From NCBI GenBank assembly GCA_937864295.1, contig CALMJA010000025.1:1-64000 (forward strand): 64,000 bases of DNA. Direction: 5' to 3'. The stretch is from an uncultured Candidatus Altimarinota bacterium. GTDB taxonomy: Bacteria > Patescibacteriota > Gracilibacteria > BD1-5 > UBA6164. Below the pieces are notes generated by a model. It made no database searches, was not told where the DNA came from, and saw only the letters and a list, made by a program, of their open reading frames with translations. Position 1 is the first letter of the stretch; every line of letters starts with the position of its first letter. This document shows positions 55,414 through 63,971 of this stretch, in pieces. The translations under genes were made by a program, and so were the position numbers.

Positions 55414-57705
55414 ATGAAAAAATCTTTTTTATTATTATGTACAAGCTTGTTTGCTTTTGCTCCTACATATGCAGCATTAGAGGATAATTCAATTGAAGCA
55501 GAATTGGACGCTCAAAAAGTAAAAACTCTTAATACAGATTTTAAATTAAAATCTTTTGAGAGCTGTCAAAATATGGAAGATGTAATGGGTGATTATATTA
55601 AAGAGTATTGGAAAAATAATAAACAAAATTATTATAGATATCCAATGATGTTAGATGATGTTATGTTTTGATCTATGGAAAAATCTGAAGAAGCTGTAAT
55701 GGAAACTTCAAATGTAGTTGCTGATCAAGCATCAGGTTCTCCTGCAACACCTGATTTTTCACAAACAAATAATCAAGTAGTTTGAGTTGATGAATCAGAT
55801 ATCATAAAAACAGATGGTAAATATATATATTATTTTAATGATAGTGATAGTTATGTTTATATCGTTTCAGTTGCAAATAAAGAAATAGTTAAAAAAATAA
55901 AAGTTCCAAAAACTTTTTATTCTCCTATTTTATATTTAGGAAACAATACTCTAACTATTTTATCTAGTTGATATTCAAATCAAGATTATTCAGCTAAATG
56001 ATATTATATAAATAGAAATGATAAAACATATGTTATAGTTTTTAATATTGCAGATGTTAAAGCTCCAAAATTAGATAAATTATATATTACTGATTGAAGT
56101 TTAACTCAATCAAGAAAAATAGGCGATTATATATATATAATTTCAAATAACTATTTTAATATACCATATTATACTTTTAAAAGTGAAGATGATATAGATT
56201 TTTCTGTGTCAGATATAATGCCACAAAAAATAGATATCTCAAAAACAAGTATAAAAGCAAAACAAAATTTAAAAGTTAAATGAGCAGTTGCACCATATAA
56301 TGTAACTTCTTGAAATGTTGCTGATTGTACTAAAATAAGTTATGTTTTACCTGATGAAGAAACAATAAAACAATATGATTTTAATCCAAGTTATAATGTA
56401 ATTTCAGTTATTGATACAAAAGATACAAGTAAAAAAGTAGAAACTTCAGTTATTGCTTGAAGTAATAATCAAATATATATGAGTTTAGATAATTTATATA
56501 TGACTTCAAATATGTATCAAAGTTATGATTTTGCATGTCCTATGAATGCTAGATGTTTTGCTCCTTGGTTTTCTAGAGGATCAAATACACTTTTACACAA
56601 ATTAAATGTGGCTTGAATGAAAGTTACATATCAAGATTCTACAATAATTCCATGAACTCCATTGACTCAATATAGTATGGATGAATATAAAACTGATTTT
56701 AGAATACTTACTCAAACTAATTCTTGGGAAAGTGGTCAAAATGAAAGTCATACAGATTTATACATTCTAGATAAAGCTTTATCTTTAAAATGAAGTTTAA
56801 AAAATCTTTGAACTTGAGAACAATTTAAATGAAGTAGATATATAGGTGATAAATTATTTTTAGTTACATTTGAACAAACTGATCCACTTTTTGTTATAGA
56901 TGTTGCTGATAGTGCTTCTCCAAAAATTTTATGAGAATTAAAAATCCCATGATATAGTACATATTTACATCCATATGATGCAAATCATTTAATTGGTATT
57001 GGTTATGATACAAAAGAAAATGAATGGGGTTGAATAGTTAATTCATGATTAAAAGTAGATTTATATGAAATTAATTATGATAAAAAATGTGGTGATACTT
57101 GATTAACTGCATTAGAAAAATCAAAATGTGATAGTGGTGATTACAAATGAATAATTGTTAAACAAAAATTTACAAAAACTCTAGGATCAAATTGAAGTTA
57201 TAGTGAAGCTTTAGATAATCCAAGAATGTTTATGTGGAAGGCAAGTGATAAAAAATTATTTTTACCTGTAACTCTTTATGGTAATAATTGAGTAGATTTA
57301 TATAGATATACTGATTTCTTTAATGGACTTGTTACTTTATCAATAGATAAAGATGCTTGAATAAAAGAAGATTATAGAGTAACTCATATAGATACTACTT
57401 GACTTGAAGCAGAAAGAGAAAAAGAATGTAGTGTTTATACTAAACAAACTACACAAAGTTCTTGTGTAAAACTTATAAATTGAGAACAATATTGTGAAGA
57501 TAGAGTTTATAATTATGTACCTACTTATTGTTATGCTGAATCTAAAATTTGAGAATATTTAGCATCGAGAAGTTGGAATTATTATAATAGTTTCATAAAA
57601 AGAGCATTATGGGTTTGAGAAAATTCTTATAGTGTTTCAAATTCTTATGTTTCTTCTAATAATATATCAACTTGAAAAGAAATTTTTAAATTACAATTAA
57701 AATAA
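55414..57705 (+). CDS. Secreted beta-propeller protein (COG4880-like)
   Basis: 763 aa. Signal peptide MKKSFLLLCTSLFAFAPTYA-A; residues about 120-140 read QVVGVDESDIIKTDGKYIYYF, the family entry motif, followed by blades with IYIISNNYF, IYMSLDNLYMTS, LYILDKALSLKG, LFLVTFEQTDPLFVIDV and so on. Several Cys pairs near the middle and in the C-terminal part (ECSVYTKQTTQSSC, CYAESK) suggest disulfides. The C-terminus has no obvious sorting signal. Probably exported and cell-surface; located right after the ECF sigma and membrane partner, so possibly under their control. Confidence 0.85.
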
Positions 57706-57792: not shown

Positions 57793-59136
57793 ATGGACTT
57801 ATCATTTGCATGAGCATGACTTGCTATTTGACTTGCATGACTTTGAATATCTATAGGTCAATGATTTTTGATTTATAAAGCAATGGAAGTTATTGGTAAA
57901 AATCCAAAAATGTCACCATTTTATTTGACTACAACTGTTCTATGAGTTGCACTTGTTGAATCAGCATGAATATATGGTTTAATAGTGGCATTTAAAATAT
58001 TATCCACTACTTTTGTTGATCCTATAACTGCTATTTGAGTTGGTCTTGCAATCTGACTTGCATGACTTTGAGCTTGAGTTTGAGAATGATATTTGGTTTC
58101 AGGTGCTTTGGAAGCTATGAATAAAGATCCTGAAAATAAAAATAAAATTTTAACTTATATGATTTTATTTTTAGCACTTGTAGAATCTTCAGCTATATAT
58201 GGATTAATAATAGCATTTCAATTATTATCAAAACTAGATTTATCTCCGTTTTTAGCTATATGAGCATGACTTTCTGTTTGATTTGCTTGACTCTGAGTTG
58301 CTATAGGTGAATGATTAGTTTCAAGGAGGGCTCTAATTGTTATTTGAGATAAGCCAGAGTTAACTTCTTATTTATTACCTATAACTGTTTTAGGTATAGC
58401 ACTAGTAGAATCAGCAGCAATTTATGGTCTTATTATGTCATTTTCTATTATAAATGCTACAAATTTAGTTGATCCAGTTATTGCTATATGAGCATGATTA
58501 GCTGTATGACTTGCATGACTTTGAGTTTGAATTTGAGAATGAATATTGGTTTCAAATGCTATAGAATCTATGTGAATTTTTAGAGTAAATAAAACAAAAA
58601 CTCTTACTTATATGATTTTATTTTTGGCACTAGTAGAATCATCAGCAATTTATGGATTAATAGTTTGATTACAAATGCTTTCAGTTTGAGATATTTCATG
58701 AATTGGAGCTGTATGAGCATGATTAGCTGTATGACTTGCATGACTTTGAGTTTGAATTTGAGAATGAGTATTATCAGGTAGATCTATATTATTGATATCA
58801 AAAAGACCTACTTTATCAATATTTTTCTTAACTGTAACTATTTTATGAATAGCACTAGTAGAATCAGCAGCTATATATGGTTTAATTATAGCTATACAAA
58901 TTATTTCTACTCCAGCTATTTTAGGAGTTATGTGATTATGAGCATGATTATGAGTTTGATTTGCTTGAATTTGAGCATGAATAGGAGAATGATATATGGT
59001 TTCATGAGCTTTTGAAGCAATGTATAGAAATCCAGCTTATAAGACAAAAATATTAACTTATATGATTTTATGAATAGCACTAGTAGAATCAGCAGCAATT
59101 TACTCTTTATTAGTAGCGTTTAATATCTTATTTTAG
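57793..59136 (+). CDS. ATP synthase c-type subunit with six fused hairpins (copy 1)
   Basis: 447 aa against about 75-90 for a normal c subunit. Six consecutive units, each a Gly-rich helix (for example GAGLAIGLAGLGAGVGEG), a polar loop ending N/D-P, and an outer helix with A-L-V-E-S-A-A-I-Y-G-L. All six carry the ion-binding Glu (E56, E131 and equivalents) followed by Ser and Tyr. In the inner helix the first hairpin has Gln (Q23), the others Glu. Odd hairpins have a T-I-L-G-I-ALVESAAIY style outer helix, even ones Y-M-I-L-F-L-ALVESSAIY, so three two-hairpin units are fused. A terminator separates it from atpB. Confidence 0.92.
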
Positions 59137-59342
59137 TCTAAAAAAAAGACACAAAAAAAAGATTTGATTTTTTTATAAAAATAGTTATTATACCAAACAA
59201 AAAGCTGTTTTAAAAAACCCTAAAAATCCCTTAGAATAGGGAAAAAGCAAATGAAAAAATATAATTTTCATTTGCTTTTTTTTTAGTGTTAACTATACTT
59301 TTTTGGTTTTAATTTATTTGTATAACTTTTTAATACAAACAT
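59137..59342 (+). other. Spacer with terminator between c copy 1 and atpB
   Basis: 206 bp. Contains a CCCTAA..TTAG..AGGG hairpin near 59218, the terminator, and then AT-rich sequence with TATAAC 21 bp upstream of the atpB start, presumably the atpB promoter although the -35 is poor. Confidence 0.5.
59243..59285 (+). terminator. Terminator after the six-hairpin c gene copy 1
   Basis: AAAAAGCAAATGAAAA / TTTTCATTTGCTTTTT stem with nine T. Confidence 0.85.
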
Positions 59343-60188
59343 ATGGATGTACTACATAATTTTTTAAATGCATATTACCATTCATCTGGTGAGCATGTAT
59401 GATTAAACCCATATTTTTTGTGAACATTTATTGTTCTAGGTTTAATACTTATTATTTATTTTTTTGTTACAAAAAAACCAAATTCTAGTTTTTCTATATT
59501 TTTTGATATGATTTTTGAAAAAGTTTATAATTTTTTTGAAGATATATTATGAGTAGAAGAAAAAAAATGGACTAAATTATATATAACAGGTATGTTTTTT
59601 GTTATATTAATTTCAAATCTTTTATGAGTTTTTCTAGAAATAATTTGAATAGGTCTGCCTTTCTTACATGAAGTTATTCATATTCCAACATCTGATATAA
59701 ATTTCAATGTTGCTATGGCTATAATTTGAGTATGTATAGTTATATATGAACAATTTAAATTTCTTTGATTTTGAAAAGCGTTATATGAATATGTTCCTTT
59801 TTTATGAAAAGATTATATTCCATATGAAAAAGGTAAATTAAATAAATTTATAGATATTCCATTGTTTATATTAGTTAAATTTTTTGATATAGTTATATCT
59901 TTATTCTTAGGTATACTTGAAATAGTATGACACTGAGCTAAAATTATATCTTTATCATTTAGACTTTTTGGTAATATAACTTCTTGAGGTATGTTACTTG
60001 CTATGCTTTTGGCATGAGTTGAACTTTTAACTTGATCAATAAGTTGATTTATATTTTCAAAAGAAATTAATTTTCCAATTATATTTCCACTTATACTACA
60101 TTTACAATGATTACTTGTAGCTTTAATACAAGCATTGGTATTTCCTCTTTTGATTGCTATTTTTATTAAAGTAGCAAAAGCGCATTAA
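59343..60188 (+). CDS. atpB: ATP synthase subunit a
   Basis: 281 aa, about five to six membrane helices. Key Arg207 is in SLSFRLFGNITSGGMLL (family SL--RLFGN---G), and LQGLLVALIQALVFPLL near the end carries the conserved Gln (family Q-AY-F--L). N-terminal HSSGEHVGLNPYF resembles typical a-subunit starts. It forms the ion half-channels beside the c-ring. It lies between the two six-hairpin c genes. Confidence 0.96.
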
Positions 60189-60227
60189 AATTATTTACTT
60201 ATTTATATTATTTAATTAAAAATTCTT

Positions 60228-61574
60228 ATGGAAAATTTAGCAAATTTTATATGAGCATGATTGGCAATTTGATTGTCATGAGTTTGAGTTGCTATAGGGC
60301 AATGAATGCTTTGAAAAAATGCTGTTGAAGCTATGTGAAAAAATAAAGATTTATCTTCTTTTTTCTTAACAATTACTATTCTTGGTATCGCACTTGTTGA
60401 ATCAGCTGCAATTTATTGATTAGTTGTTGCATTTAAAATACTTGGTATAGAAGATATATCTATGGCAGCATCAATTTGAGCATGATTAGCTATATGACTT
60501 GCATGAATGTGAGCATGAATCTGAGAACTTATTGCTTGAGCTATGTCTGCTATTAGTAATAATCCAAAAATAAAAGGTAGAATTATGGCTTATATGGTAT
60601 TATTTGTTGCATTGGTTGAAGCTGCTGCAATTTACTGATTAGTTATAGCATTTAAAATACTTTGAGATACAGATTTTACAAATCAAGCTTTTGTTGGTAT
60701 GTGATTGGCAGTTTGATTAGCATGATTATGAGTTGCAATTTGACAATGAATATTAGCTGATAGATCTATGGAAGTTATGTCAAAACAAGAATCTATGATT
60801 TGATTTTTCTTAACAATTACTATTCTTGGTATCGCACTTGTTGAATCTGCTGCTATATATTGACTTGTTGTTGCTTTTGATATTTTTGGTAAAGAATTAT
60901 CACTTATGGCTGCAACTTGAGCATGATTAGCTATATGACTTGCATGACTTTGAGCTTGAGTTTGAGAATGAATACTTATTGCTTGAGCACTTACTGCTAT
61001 AAGTAGAAACCCAAAAATAAAAGGTAAACTTTTAACTTTTATGGTACTTTTCGTAGCTTTAGTTGAAGTTACTGCTATTTATTGATTAATTATTGCATTT
61101 AAAATTTCTAGTGATTTCAATTCTTGAATTGATCAATTAGTATATGTATGAACATGATTGGCTATATGACTTGCATGATTATGAGTTGCAATTTGACAAT
61201 GAAATTTAGCTGAAAAATGATTAGAGGTAATGTGAAAAAACCCATCAATTATTGGTTTTATGTTAACTGTTTCTATATTGTGAGTTGCACTTGTTGAATC
61301 AGCTGTTATATATGCACTAGTTGTTTCATTTAAAATATTATGAGCGCAAGCTACATTATCATGATTAGCTGCTGTTTGAGCATGACTTGCAATATGACTT
61401 GCATGATTATGAGCTTGAGTTGGTGAATGATTATTAATAAAAGGTGCTTTAAAATGAATAAATTCTGATCCAGAATCTAAAGGTAAAACTCTAGCATTTA
61501 TGGTATTGTTCGTAGCATTGGTAGAAGTTGTTGCTATATATTGATTATTAATAGCATTTAAAATTATTGGTTAA
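60228..61574 (+). CDS. ATP synthase c-type subunit with six fused hairpins (copy 2)
   Basis: 448 aa, six hairpins like copy 1. Alternation is sharper: hairpins 1, 3 and 5 have VAIGQG in the inner helix and LVESAAIYGL (or LVESAVIYAL) outside, with both Gln and Ser as in sodium-type c rings; hairpins 2, 4 and 6 have AGVGEG-type inner helices and LVEAAAIY, LVEVTAIY or LVEVVAIY, with Glu but no Ser. Loops contain N-P-K-x-K-G in even hairpins. No break, stop or signal peptide. It starts 39 bp after atpB and ends 23 bp before atpF, so it is in the main atp operon. Confidence 0.93.
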
Positions 61575-61597: not shown

Positions 61598-62071
61598 ATG
61601 GAAGATTTAAAATTAGAATTGATTATTGCTGCTATGATCAATTTTGCTATATTATTTTTTGTTTTTAAACATTTTCTTTGAAAGAAATTATCTGAAGCTA
61701 TTGAAGAAAGAAGAAAACATTTAAAAGCATCTGCTGAAGCTGAAGATATAGCTAAAGCAAAGTTAGAAGAAGCAGAATGACAAGTTAAAAACATATTAGA
61801 TGAAGCTAGAAATAATGCTTCAAAAATAGAAAAAACAGCAGAAGAGCTATCTAAACAAAATACTGCAAAGGCTTTAGAAAGAGCAAGTAAAGATGCAGAA
61901 TATATTTTAGAAAATGCTAAATCTCAAACAGAAAAAGATAGATTAGATATGATTAATTCTATGAGATCTAGAGTTTTGGATTTATCTTTAAAATTAAGTT
62001 CTAAATTATTTTCTAAAGAAACTGCTAATAAAGATTTTTTAGAAAAGGAATTAGATGTATTAACTAAATAA
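61598..62071 (+). CDS. atpF: ATP synthase subunit b
   Basis: 157 aa. N-terminal membrane helix (LIIAAMINFAILFFVFKHFL, about 8-28) then a long charged helix (EAIEERRKHLKASAEAEDIAKAKLEEAEGQ...) typical of the peripheral stalk. The end LSLKLSSKLFSKETANKDFLEKELDVLTK matches the region that contacts delta. Length and place between c and delta genes are normal. Confidence 0.93.
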
Positions 62072-62079
62072 TAAATATT

Positions 62080-62436
62080 ATGACACAAGATGTTAATATA
62101 AATAATTTAACTTTAGAAGAATCTAAAATTTTACTTAATGAAGTTAAATTATATAGAAATTTGAAAAAACAACTTGGTTCTAGGTGAGTAGCTTTATACA
62201 ATAAAATGAAAACTTGAAAAAAGAATTTAGTTGTAGAATATTTTCCAGTAATTTCAGAAGATCTTGCTTGGGAAGAAGCAAATAAAGTATTTAAAAAAAT
62301 ATTTTCTTTAGATGTTAAAAAAGAAGATGTTATATTTACTCCAAAAGAATCAATACTTGGTTGAATAAGAGTATATGTTGATGACTCAGTTATTGATTTA
62401 AGTTATCTAAAAATAGAGAGAATTGTGAAAAAATAA
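62080..62436 (+). CDS. atpH: ATP synthase delta-like subunit, short form
   Basis: 118 aa against about 175-180 for delta. The C-terminal part matches delta: FTPKESILGGIRVYVDDSVIDLSYLKIERIVKK (family P-LIGG--V-V-D-VIDGS). The N-terminal six-helix domain that binds the alpha N-termini is reduced to about 60 residues. Placement between atpF and atpA supports the call. Confidence 0.85.
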
Positions 62437-62465: not shown

Positions 62466-63971
62466 ATGTCAAAAGACTTATTAAACAGTATTATAAATGA
62501 TATAGAAGCTAGAATTGATTCTGTTGAATTAAATCCTAGTGTATGAAATGTTGGTGAAGTATTTTACCTATGAGATGGTGTTGCAAAAGTTTCAGGTTTA
62601 AGTCAAGTTTCTTACAATGAAGTAGTTGAATTTGAATCTGGTGCTAGAGGTATTGCTTTAAATTTAGAAGAACATTTTGTTTGAGTAGTAGTTTTATCTG
62701 GATTTAATACAATTAAAGAAGGTGAAAAAGTTTATTCAAATGGAAAAGTTTTAGAAGTTCCAGTTGGTAGAGGTTTAATTGGTAGAGTAGTAGATGCACT
62801 ATGAAATCCTATAGATGGTTTAGGTGATATTAAATCAACTGAAAATTATCCTATTGAAAGAGTAGCTACTTGAGTTATGGCTAGAAAATCAGTTCATGAA
62901 CCAATGTCTACAGGTATTAAAGCTATTGATGCTCTTGTACCAATTGGTAGATGACAAAGAGAATTAATTATCGGTGATAGACAAACTGGTAAAACTCAAA
63001 TTGCAATAGATGCTATTTTAAATCAAAAAGGTCAATGAGTAACTTGTGTATACGTTGCTATTGGTCAAAAAGAAGGTAAAATCGCTAGAATTGTTGAAGA
63101 GCTTAAAAAAAGATGAGCTATGGATTATACTATAGTTGTTGCTGCTTGAGCTTCTGCTCCTGCTTCTATGCAATATTTATCTCCATATGCTGGTTGTGCT
63201 ATGGCTGAATATTTCATGTTTAACAAAGAACATTCATTAATTATCTATGATGATTTAACTAAACAAGCAAATGCTTATAGAGAAATGTCATTATTATTAA
63301 GAAGACCACCAGGTAGAGAAGCTTATCCATGAGATGTATTTTATACTCACTCTAGATTACTTGAAAGAGCATCAAAATTAAATGATGAATTAGGTGCTGG
63401 TTCTATGACAGCTCTTCCTATTATTGAAACTCAAGCTTGAGATGTTTCTGCTTATATTCCAACAAATGTAATTTCAATTACTGATGGACAAATATTTTTA
63501 GAATCAAACTTATTTAATGCAGGTCAAAAACCAGCTATCAATGTTTGATTATCAGTTTCAAGAGTTTGAGGTTCTGCTCAAATCAAAGGTATGAAAAAAG
63601 TTTCAGGTACTTTAAAATTAGACTTAGCTCAATATAGAGAACTTGCTGCATTTTCACAATTTGCTTCTGATTTAGATAAAGAAACAAAAGCACAATTAGA
63701 TAGAGGTGCTAGAATGATGGAATTATTAAAACAATGAGTTTATTCTCCTGTTACAGTTGAAAAACAAATTGCTTCAATTTATGCTGGTTGAAAAGGTTAC
63801 TTAGATGCTATTGATGTTTCTAAAGTTGCTAAATTTGAACATGATTTATATTCTACATTAGATGAAGAAAAAACTATTTTGGCATATATATCAAAAGAAA
63901 AACAAATGAATGAAGAAATTGAAGCAAAATTAATTGAAGTTATTAAAAAAGTTGTTGAATTAAATAAATAA
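62466..63971 (+). CDS. atpA: ATP synthase subunit alpha
   Basis: 501 aa. Walker A GDRQTGKT at 170-177 (the alpha variant, with Q), [16 protein letters not shown] before it, [21 protein letters not shown] as Walker B region, and [26 protein letters not shown]. Starts [17 protein letters not shown]. Glycines of PIGRGQRE and EAYPGDV are TGA. The gamma, beta and epsilon genes are expected to follow outside the window. Confidence 0.98.

Follow-up and report, generated by a model that had tools for sequence, protein, structure and literature searches.

Rotary ATPase theory treats the ion sites of a rotor ring as identical, each with one fixed ion. How, then, should one read an operon for an F-type ATP synthase with two c subunits of six hairpins each, in which the sites differ in known ion ligands and do so by rule? 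This operon lies in a 64,000-nucleotide stretch (the window) of contig CALMJA010000025.1, assembly GCA_937864295.1, from an uncultured “Candidatus Altimarinota” bacterium. The overall reading that we favor, at a probability of roughly two in three, is that concatenated two-hairpin units would form a joint 12-hairpin ring combining Na+ sites of the two-carboxylate type (Glu, Glu, and Ser; E-E-S) with sites that lack Ser.

Periodic residues in two six-hairpin c subunits

Copy 1 (positions 57793 to 59136, forward strand) encodes 447 amino acids and copy 2 (60228 to 61574, forward strand) encodes 448 in one open reading frame; each contains six PF00137 hairpins, not the single one usual for an F-type c. 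Residue equivalence was set by aligning the window hairpins to the c subunits of Fusobacterium nucleatum (PDB accession number 3zk1), Acetobacterium woodii, and chloroplasts. The odd hairpins of copy 2 pair Gln32 with Ser66 (Q25, Q173, and Q324, each with an outer VES), whereas the even ones pair Glu32 with Ala or Val at 66 (E100 with VEA, E247 and E400 with VEV); the E65 equivalents are E58, E131, E206, E280, E357, and E433. Thus, the alternation of GQG/VES with GE/VE(A/V) described in the original prediction is present exactly as stated, and the variation is periodic across the 12 aligned hairpins, in step with tandem two-hairpin units. Copy 1 also matches its earlier description, with Ser66 in six of six hairpins and an inner Glu in five of them (Q/VES followed by five E/VES, at Q23/E56, E98/E131, E173/E206, E249/E282, E324/E357, and E399/E432).

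Equivalents of E65 and Y70 are present in all 12 hairpins, and the inner residue lies 33 positions from the outer one, as for Q32 and E65, everywhere except in hairpin 2 of copy 2. There, the spacing is 31, due to a 2-residue deletion right after the inner Glu E100 (60525 to 60527, forward strand), such that positions 60525 to 60540 read GE--LIAGAM versus GEGKLIAGAM in three related genomes (G001, G002, and G010), a gap that would shift the register of the inner helix. AlphaFold2 predicts the expected 12 hairpin helices for copy 2, one of them split at the deletion, and 24 helices for a 12-hairpin relative, both at moderate confidence (predicted local distance difference test scores of 74 and 75). 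A Foldseek search against the PDB returned just weak matches to designed single-chain helical rings, because the c rings in that library are multichain, and it was not used as evidence.

Judged from these sequences, the alternation in copy 2 is not a product of chance. Two further species of the genus (G001 and G002, which also hold orthologues of copy 1) show exactly this pattern, although copy 2 differs from its counterpart in each of them by 97 synonymous and 21 to 22 amino acid-changing codons, and both copies are built of three tandem two-hairpin units of about 450 bp with 67 to 77% DNA identity between units.

Site geometry and a rule shared by relatives

In Ilyobacter tartaricus, one c subunit supplies Q32 and E65 while its neighbor supplies S66 and the carbonyl of V63, and in the K subunit of Enterococcus hirae, Q110 and E139 lie in hairpin 2 and T64 lies in hairpin 1 (PMC2359735). 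The c subunit of F. nucleatum has a constitutively protonated E32 in place of Q32, and in its crystal structure, Na+ is held by E32, E65, and the neighbor's S66 and V63, with the Ser hydroxyl as a direct ligand (PMC3692424). We therefore write site n as residues 32 and 65 of hairpin n plus residue 66 of hairpin n-1; because residue 66 comes from the neighboring hairpin, the motifs within hairpins recombine into two triads, one for Na+ and one H+-like. By site, copy 2 alternates E-E-S (even hairpins) with Q-E-A or Q-E-V (odd hairpins), and sites 2 to 6 of copy 1 are all E-E-S. The earlier expectation that neighboring hairpins build each site and that adjacent sites would differ is upheld by this geometry, as are two alternating site types in copy 2, but their proposed composition (Q-E-S alternating with two Glu and no Ser) gives way to E-E-S and Q-E-A/V. 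Nor does the Glu-for-Gln exchange in copy 1 mark weakened sites, since with Ser retained, it reproduces the crystallized two-carboxylate Na+ site of F. nucleatum (PMC3692424).

Backing for the n-1 direction comes from sequence alone: Glu32 faces Ala or Val66 of hairpin n-1 in 0 of 15 cases, whereas the n+1 direction would give 8 of 37 and pairing within the same hairpin gives 37 of 37. When copies 1 and 2 are placed in one ring, the sites read, in order, QEV, five EES, QES, EES, QEA, EES, QEV, and EES, that is, nine complete Na+ sites (eight E-E-S and one Q-E-S) and three without Ser. Given the n-1 geometry, E32, E65, the neighbor's S66, and Y70 come together at 8 of the 12 sites, and no single triad extends around the ring, the others being three Q-E-A/V and one Q-E-S. 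The chloroplast-type H+ triad, Q-E-A with Tyr, occurs only at site 3 of copy 2 (Q173, E206, and A132); the remaining Ser-less sites carry Val at 66.

To place these sites among relatives, we searched all 48 genomes of the family and a class-wide sample, mostly metagenome-assembled, and read the c genes from the fetched regions. Chains in the family carry 1, 2, 4, 6, 10, or 12 hairpins. Across 36 multihairpin chains (186 hairpins), sites within a two-hairpin unit are complete in 93 of 93 cases (87 EES, 4 EET, and 2 QES), whereas those between units are complete in 37 of 57 (35 EES and 2 QES), with the incomplete ones comprising 8 R-E-V, 4 Q-E-V, 3 Q-E-A, 4 M-E-S, and 1 N-E-S. The E65 carboxylate is retained in all 204 hairpins, so its loss from one hairpin per pair, as in V/A-type K subunits, is not seen, and Y70 is present at nearly every hairpin. 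In another family of the class, the two-hairpin c genes all have Ser or Thr at 66 and nearly always Glu or Gln at 32. The rule that these sequences show is that the site within a unit is always complete, of the two-carboxylate Na+ type, while the site between units is free to vary, being E-E-S in copy 1 and Q-E-A or Q-E-V in copy 2.

Two further features of c chains were observed among the relatives. Where Arg occupies the inner position of the ion site, the preceding hairpin always has VEVT or IEVT (L066, L067, L068, L095, L053, L057, L060, and L076), and this Arg might form an intrinsic salt bridge to E65. And in four genomes (G092, G256, G262, and G175; loci L107, L108, L109, and L110), the two hairpin types of a two-hairpin c are swapped, with the even type first, an order resembling a circular permutation of the pair.

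Ring composition, ion use, and alternatives

Copies 1 and 2 are probably halves of one 12-hairpin ring, because several relatives encode 12 hairpins in one gene (G003, G007, G015, G019, G033, and G068, at the same place in the operon). Moreover, among complete chains of at least four hairpins, copy 1 alone ends in a hairpin with Ser66, all others having Val66 there, which fits joining to copy 2 rather than closing a ring of its own. No c hairpins beyond these 12 were found in the genome, which is about 91% complete. An unlikely alternative is that the copies form separate rings exchanged by expression, in which case copy 1 would give a uniform Na+ rotor (12 complete sites as a dimer) and copy 2 an alternating one (six E-E-S and six Q-E-A/V). 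A dimer of a six-hairpin chain can indeed give a 12-ring, other relatives apparently combine one F1 with either of two Fo sets, and a conserved terminator-like hairpin with a T-run (59236 to 59296, forward strand; -20.1 kcal/mol, z of -6.9; conserved in G001) separates copy 1 from the genes for a, copy 2, and b. Missed by an automatic terminator scan because its stem extends into the T-tract, this element suggests that copy 1 is transcribed separately or with attenuation and that the copies are not simply cotranscribed. Against separate rings are the one-gene 12-hairpin chains, the terminal Ser66 of copy 1, expected of a joint ring, and the presence of just one subunit a gene in the operon.

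It might also be argued that the alternation was merely inherited from an ancestral two-hairpin gene, with all 12 sites binding the same ion and only trivial differences in affinity. The Q-S/E-V arrangement is already present in two-hairpin relatives (G009, G011, G012, G018, and G027, among many), from which tandem copying would yield the pattern, and almost all hairpins retain E65 and Y70. The copying unit is two hairpins (about 450 bp), and with unit identities as high as 100% in G003 and 98% in G068, expansion is recent and continuing. However, a tree of between-unit joints places the h2/h3 joint of copy 2 (A66/Q32) among S66/E32 rows and the h4/h5 joint (V66/Q32) among V66/R32 rows, both with moderate support, and the closest orthologous chain, in G010, has S66/E32 and V66/R32 at these joints. 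The strict alternation seems to have arisen from two distinct initial states, both of which reached Q32 with A/V66, and this argues against pure inheritance, as does the role of the Ser hydroxyl as a direct Na+ ligand (PMC3692424); we consider inheritance with uniform ion use a minority view. An artifact of assembly or of the genetic code, falsely fusing single-hairpin genes, is very improbable: repeats may collapse or expand in assemblies, and the reading frame needs UGA to encode Gly, but the same gene structures recur across the family in many genomes, some of them assembled into one or a few contigs, orthologues share both length and pattern, and units only 67 to 77% identical are unlikely to collapse.

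As for the ion, our analysis makes Na+ most likely the main coupling ion, which would bind at the E-E-S sites in the manner of F. nucleatum, with the Ser-less sites holding a proton, or staying locked, as they pass the stator Arg. The ProAD paper gives the rule that a site without one Na+ ligand is H+-specific while a whole multihairpin subunit is Na+-specific (PMC11738941), and single-chain rings of Bacillus PS3 with unequal sites do turn, with lower activity (PMC8809890). A bolder version, which we put forward only tentatively, is a mixed-ion rotor whose Na+ sites, of the Fusobacterium type, are interspersed with H+ sites like those of chloroplasts, so that both ions are moved in each turn, at a ratio fixed by the genes and tuned by copying or converting two-hairpin units. 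Somewhat more doubtful still, the Ser-less sites, together with the R-E-V sites of relatives, might be idle, with E65 neutralized without an exchangeable ion and fewer ions moved per turn, as in carboxylate-less hairpins of V-type K. Such idling would suit the Arg at position 32 of eight between-unit sites, always opposite Val66, and V-ATPases are known to have lost ligands from one of two paired hairpins (PMC2359735). Yet V-type K and A. woodii c1 (AQTTGIY) replace the carboxylate itself in one hairpin, whereas here it is kept at 204 of 204 hairpins, and Q-E-A equals the working H+ sites of chloroplast c.

Several observations weigh against the joint ring with Na+ as the main ion. T67, a water ligand in F. 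nucleatum, is replaced in most window hairpins, generally by Ala, with Ser in hairpins 2 and 4 of copy 1, Val in hairpin 6 of copy 2, and Thr only in hairpin 4 of copy 2. Not every relative keeps to 12 hairpins: G005 has 10, and G019 adds an extra two-hairpin gene to its 12. The terminator-like hairpin parts copy 1 from the remaining genes, and we infer both the heteromeric ring and the use of Na+ from sequence. Shuffling within odd and even classes gives a mean of 4.9 cases of E32 facing A/V66, with 0 reached in 9 of 20,000 shuffles, a value that is not proof against phylogeny and overstates the evidence for covariation, since on the tree, position 66 changed independently about three times, too few for significance in a phylogeny-aware test. 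Finally, searches of the organism's own genome for two Na+ pump families, membrane pyrophosphatase and Rnf/Nqr, found neither, and with one Na+/H+ exchanger detected, these searches leave a sodium gradient without an evident source.

Two Fo sets were seen in 11 relatives (G025, G027, G031, G016, G062, G064, G065, G009, G017, G034, and G060; loci L069, L070, L071, L061, L077, L078, L080/L079, L055/L056, L062/L063, L073/L074, and L081). One consists of a, a two-hairpin c with mostly complete Na+ triads, and b; the other consists of a', a single-hairpin c with I/V32 and A66 (H+-like), b', delta, and alpha. Just one alpha and one beta were found in each of the nine genomes searched (all of these but G064 and G065), apparently representing two alternative Fo motors that share one F1.

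Operon context and known rotors

The operon is complete and single, in the order c copy 1, a, c copy 2, b, delta, and alpha, followed just past the window end by gamma, beta, and epsilon (L087, 68 to 3268). On the forward strand, subunit a (59343 to 60188) has its stator Arg in SLSFRLFGN, followed beyond copy 2 by b (61598 to 62071), a short delta of 118 amino acids (62080 to 62436), and F1 alpha (62466 to 63971). The delta match is weak (PF00213, E value of 0.003, below the cut-off), with just the C-terminal part of OSCP/delta recognizable, and the protein is equally short in relatives; alpha matches TIGR00962 above the cut-off, marking the operon as F-type and not V/A-type. The genome contains a single alpha and a single beta gene. 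The window, rich in AT, uses code 25 (UGA encodes Gly), and its closest named relatives are Gracilibacteria; UGA makes up 113 of the 141 Gly codons of the two c genes (57793 to 61574), so heterologous expression needs recoding. Directly upstream of copy 1 is a gene for a secreted beta-propeller protein (55414 to 57705; PF09826, E value of 1e-112), and just past the window is a His-Xaa-Ser radical SAM (S-adenosylmethionine) peptide system (L087, 4107 to 7008) with HxsB (TIGR03978, above the cut-off), a His/Gly/Ser-rich precursor, and an HxsC-like enzyme.

If the site types differ in function, as their ligands suggest, one wheel may take Na+ at some positions and a proton, or nothing, at others. 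The natural series of F-type chains with 2, 4, 6, 10, and 12 hairpins, including one-gene rings, makes testable whether two ions share a rotor, whether the ion/ATP ratio evolves through ligands and not ring size, and how specificity switches, and it bears on what drives ATP synthase in bacteria of the candidate phyla radiation (CPR) that lack respiration; in the related Vampirococcus, a role for Na+ was considered and judged unlikely from the c sequence (PMC8080830). Multihairpin c subunits and the two-carboxylate Na+ site are already known; what is new, as read from these genes, is a concatenated F-type rotor with nonidentical, covarying sites. We found no description of multihairpin F-type c in CPR bacteria in the open-licence literature; the ProAD paper mentions, in general terms, multihairpin c/K subunits that combine H+ and Na+ sites and calls them Na+-specific (PMC11738941).

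Among characterized systems, the F. nucleatum c11 ring (3zk1; PMC3692424) shares the F type, E32 and E65 with the neighbor's S66, and Tyr70, but is built of single hairpins with 11 identical sites and has Thr67, where the window mostly has Ala or Ser. The best PDB sequence match is the A. woodii rotor (4bem; a two-hairpin c1 plus nine c2/c3), an F-type Na+ enzyme with a multihairpin c and a heteromeric ring, as proposed here, although its c1 has only two hairpins, the second with Gln for the ion-binding Glu, and its other subunits are single-hairpin. A chain holding the whole or a large part of the ring is also known from the 13-hairpin c of Methanopyrus kandleri, but that enzyme is A/V-type, with 13 of 13 sites reported complete for Na+ (PMC2359735), in contrast to the F type and variable sites here. 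The V-type K of E. hirae (2bl2) likewise has a two-hairpin unit in which the hairpins jointly make one complete Na+ site, hairpin 2 supplying the 32/65 equivalents and hairpin 1 supplying Thr64, in the direction of the n-1 rule (PMC2359735); unlike the window subunits, it has lost the carboxylate in one hairpin and is not concatenated further. Chloroplast and cyanobacterial H+ rings (2w5j, 4mjn, and 2wie) have the Q-E-A triad of site 3 in copy 2, but in single-hairpin subunits whose sites are all alike, and the engineered single-chain c10 of Bacillus PS3 (PMC8809890), although an artificial H+ enzyme with Asp replacing the carboxylate at chosen hairpins, resembles these rotors in carrying all of its hairpins in one chain and in turning, more slowly, with unequal sites.
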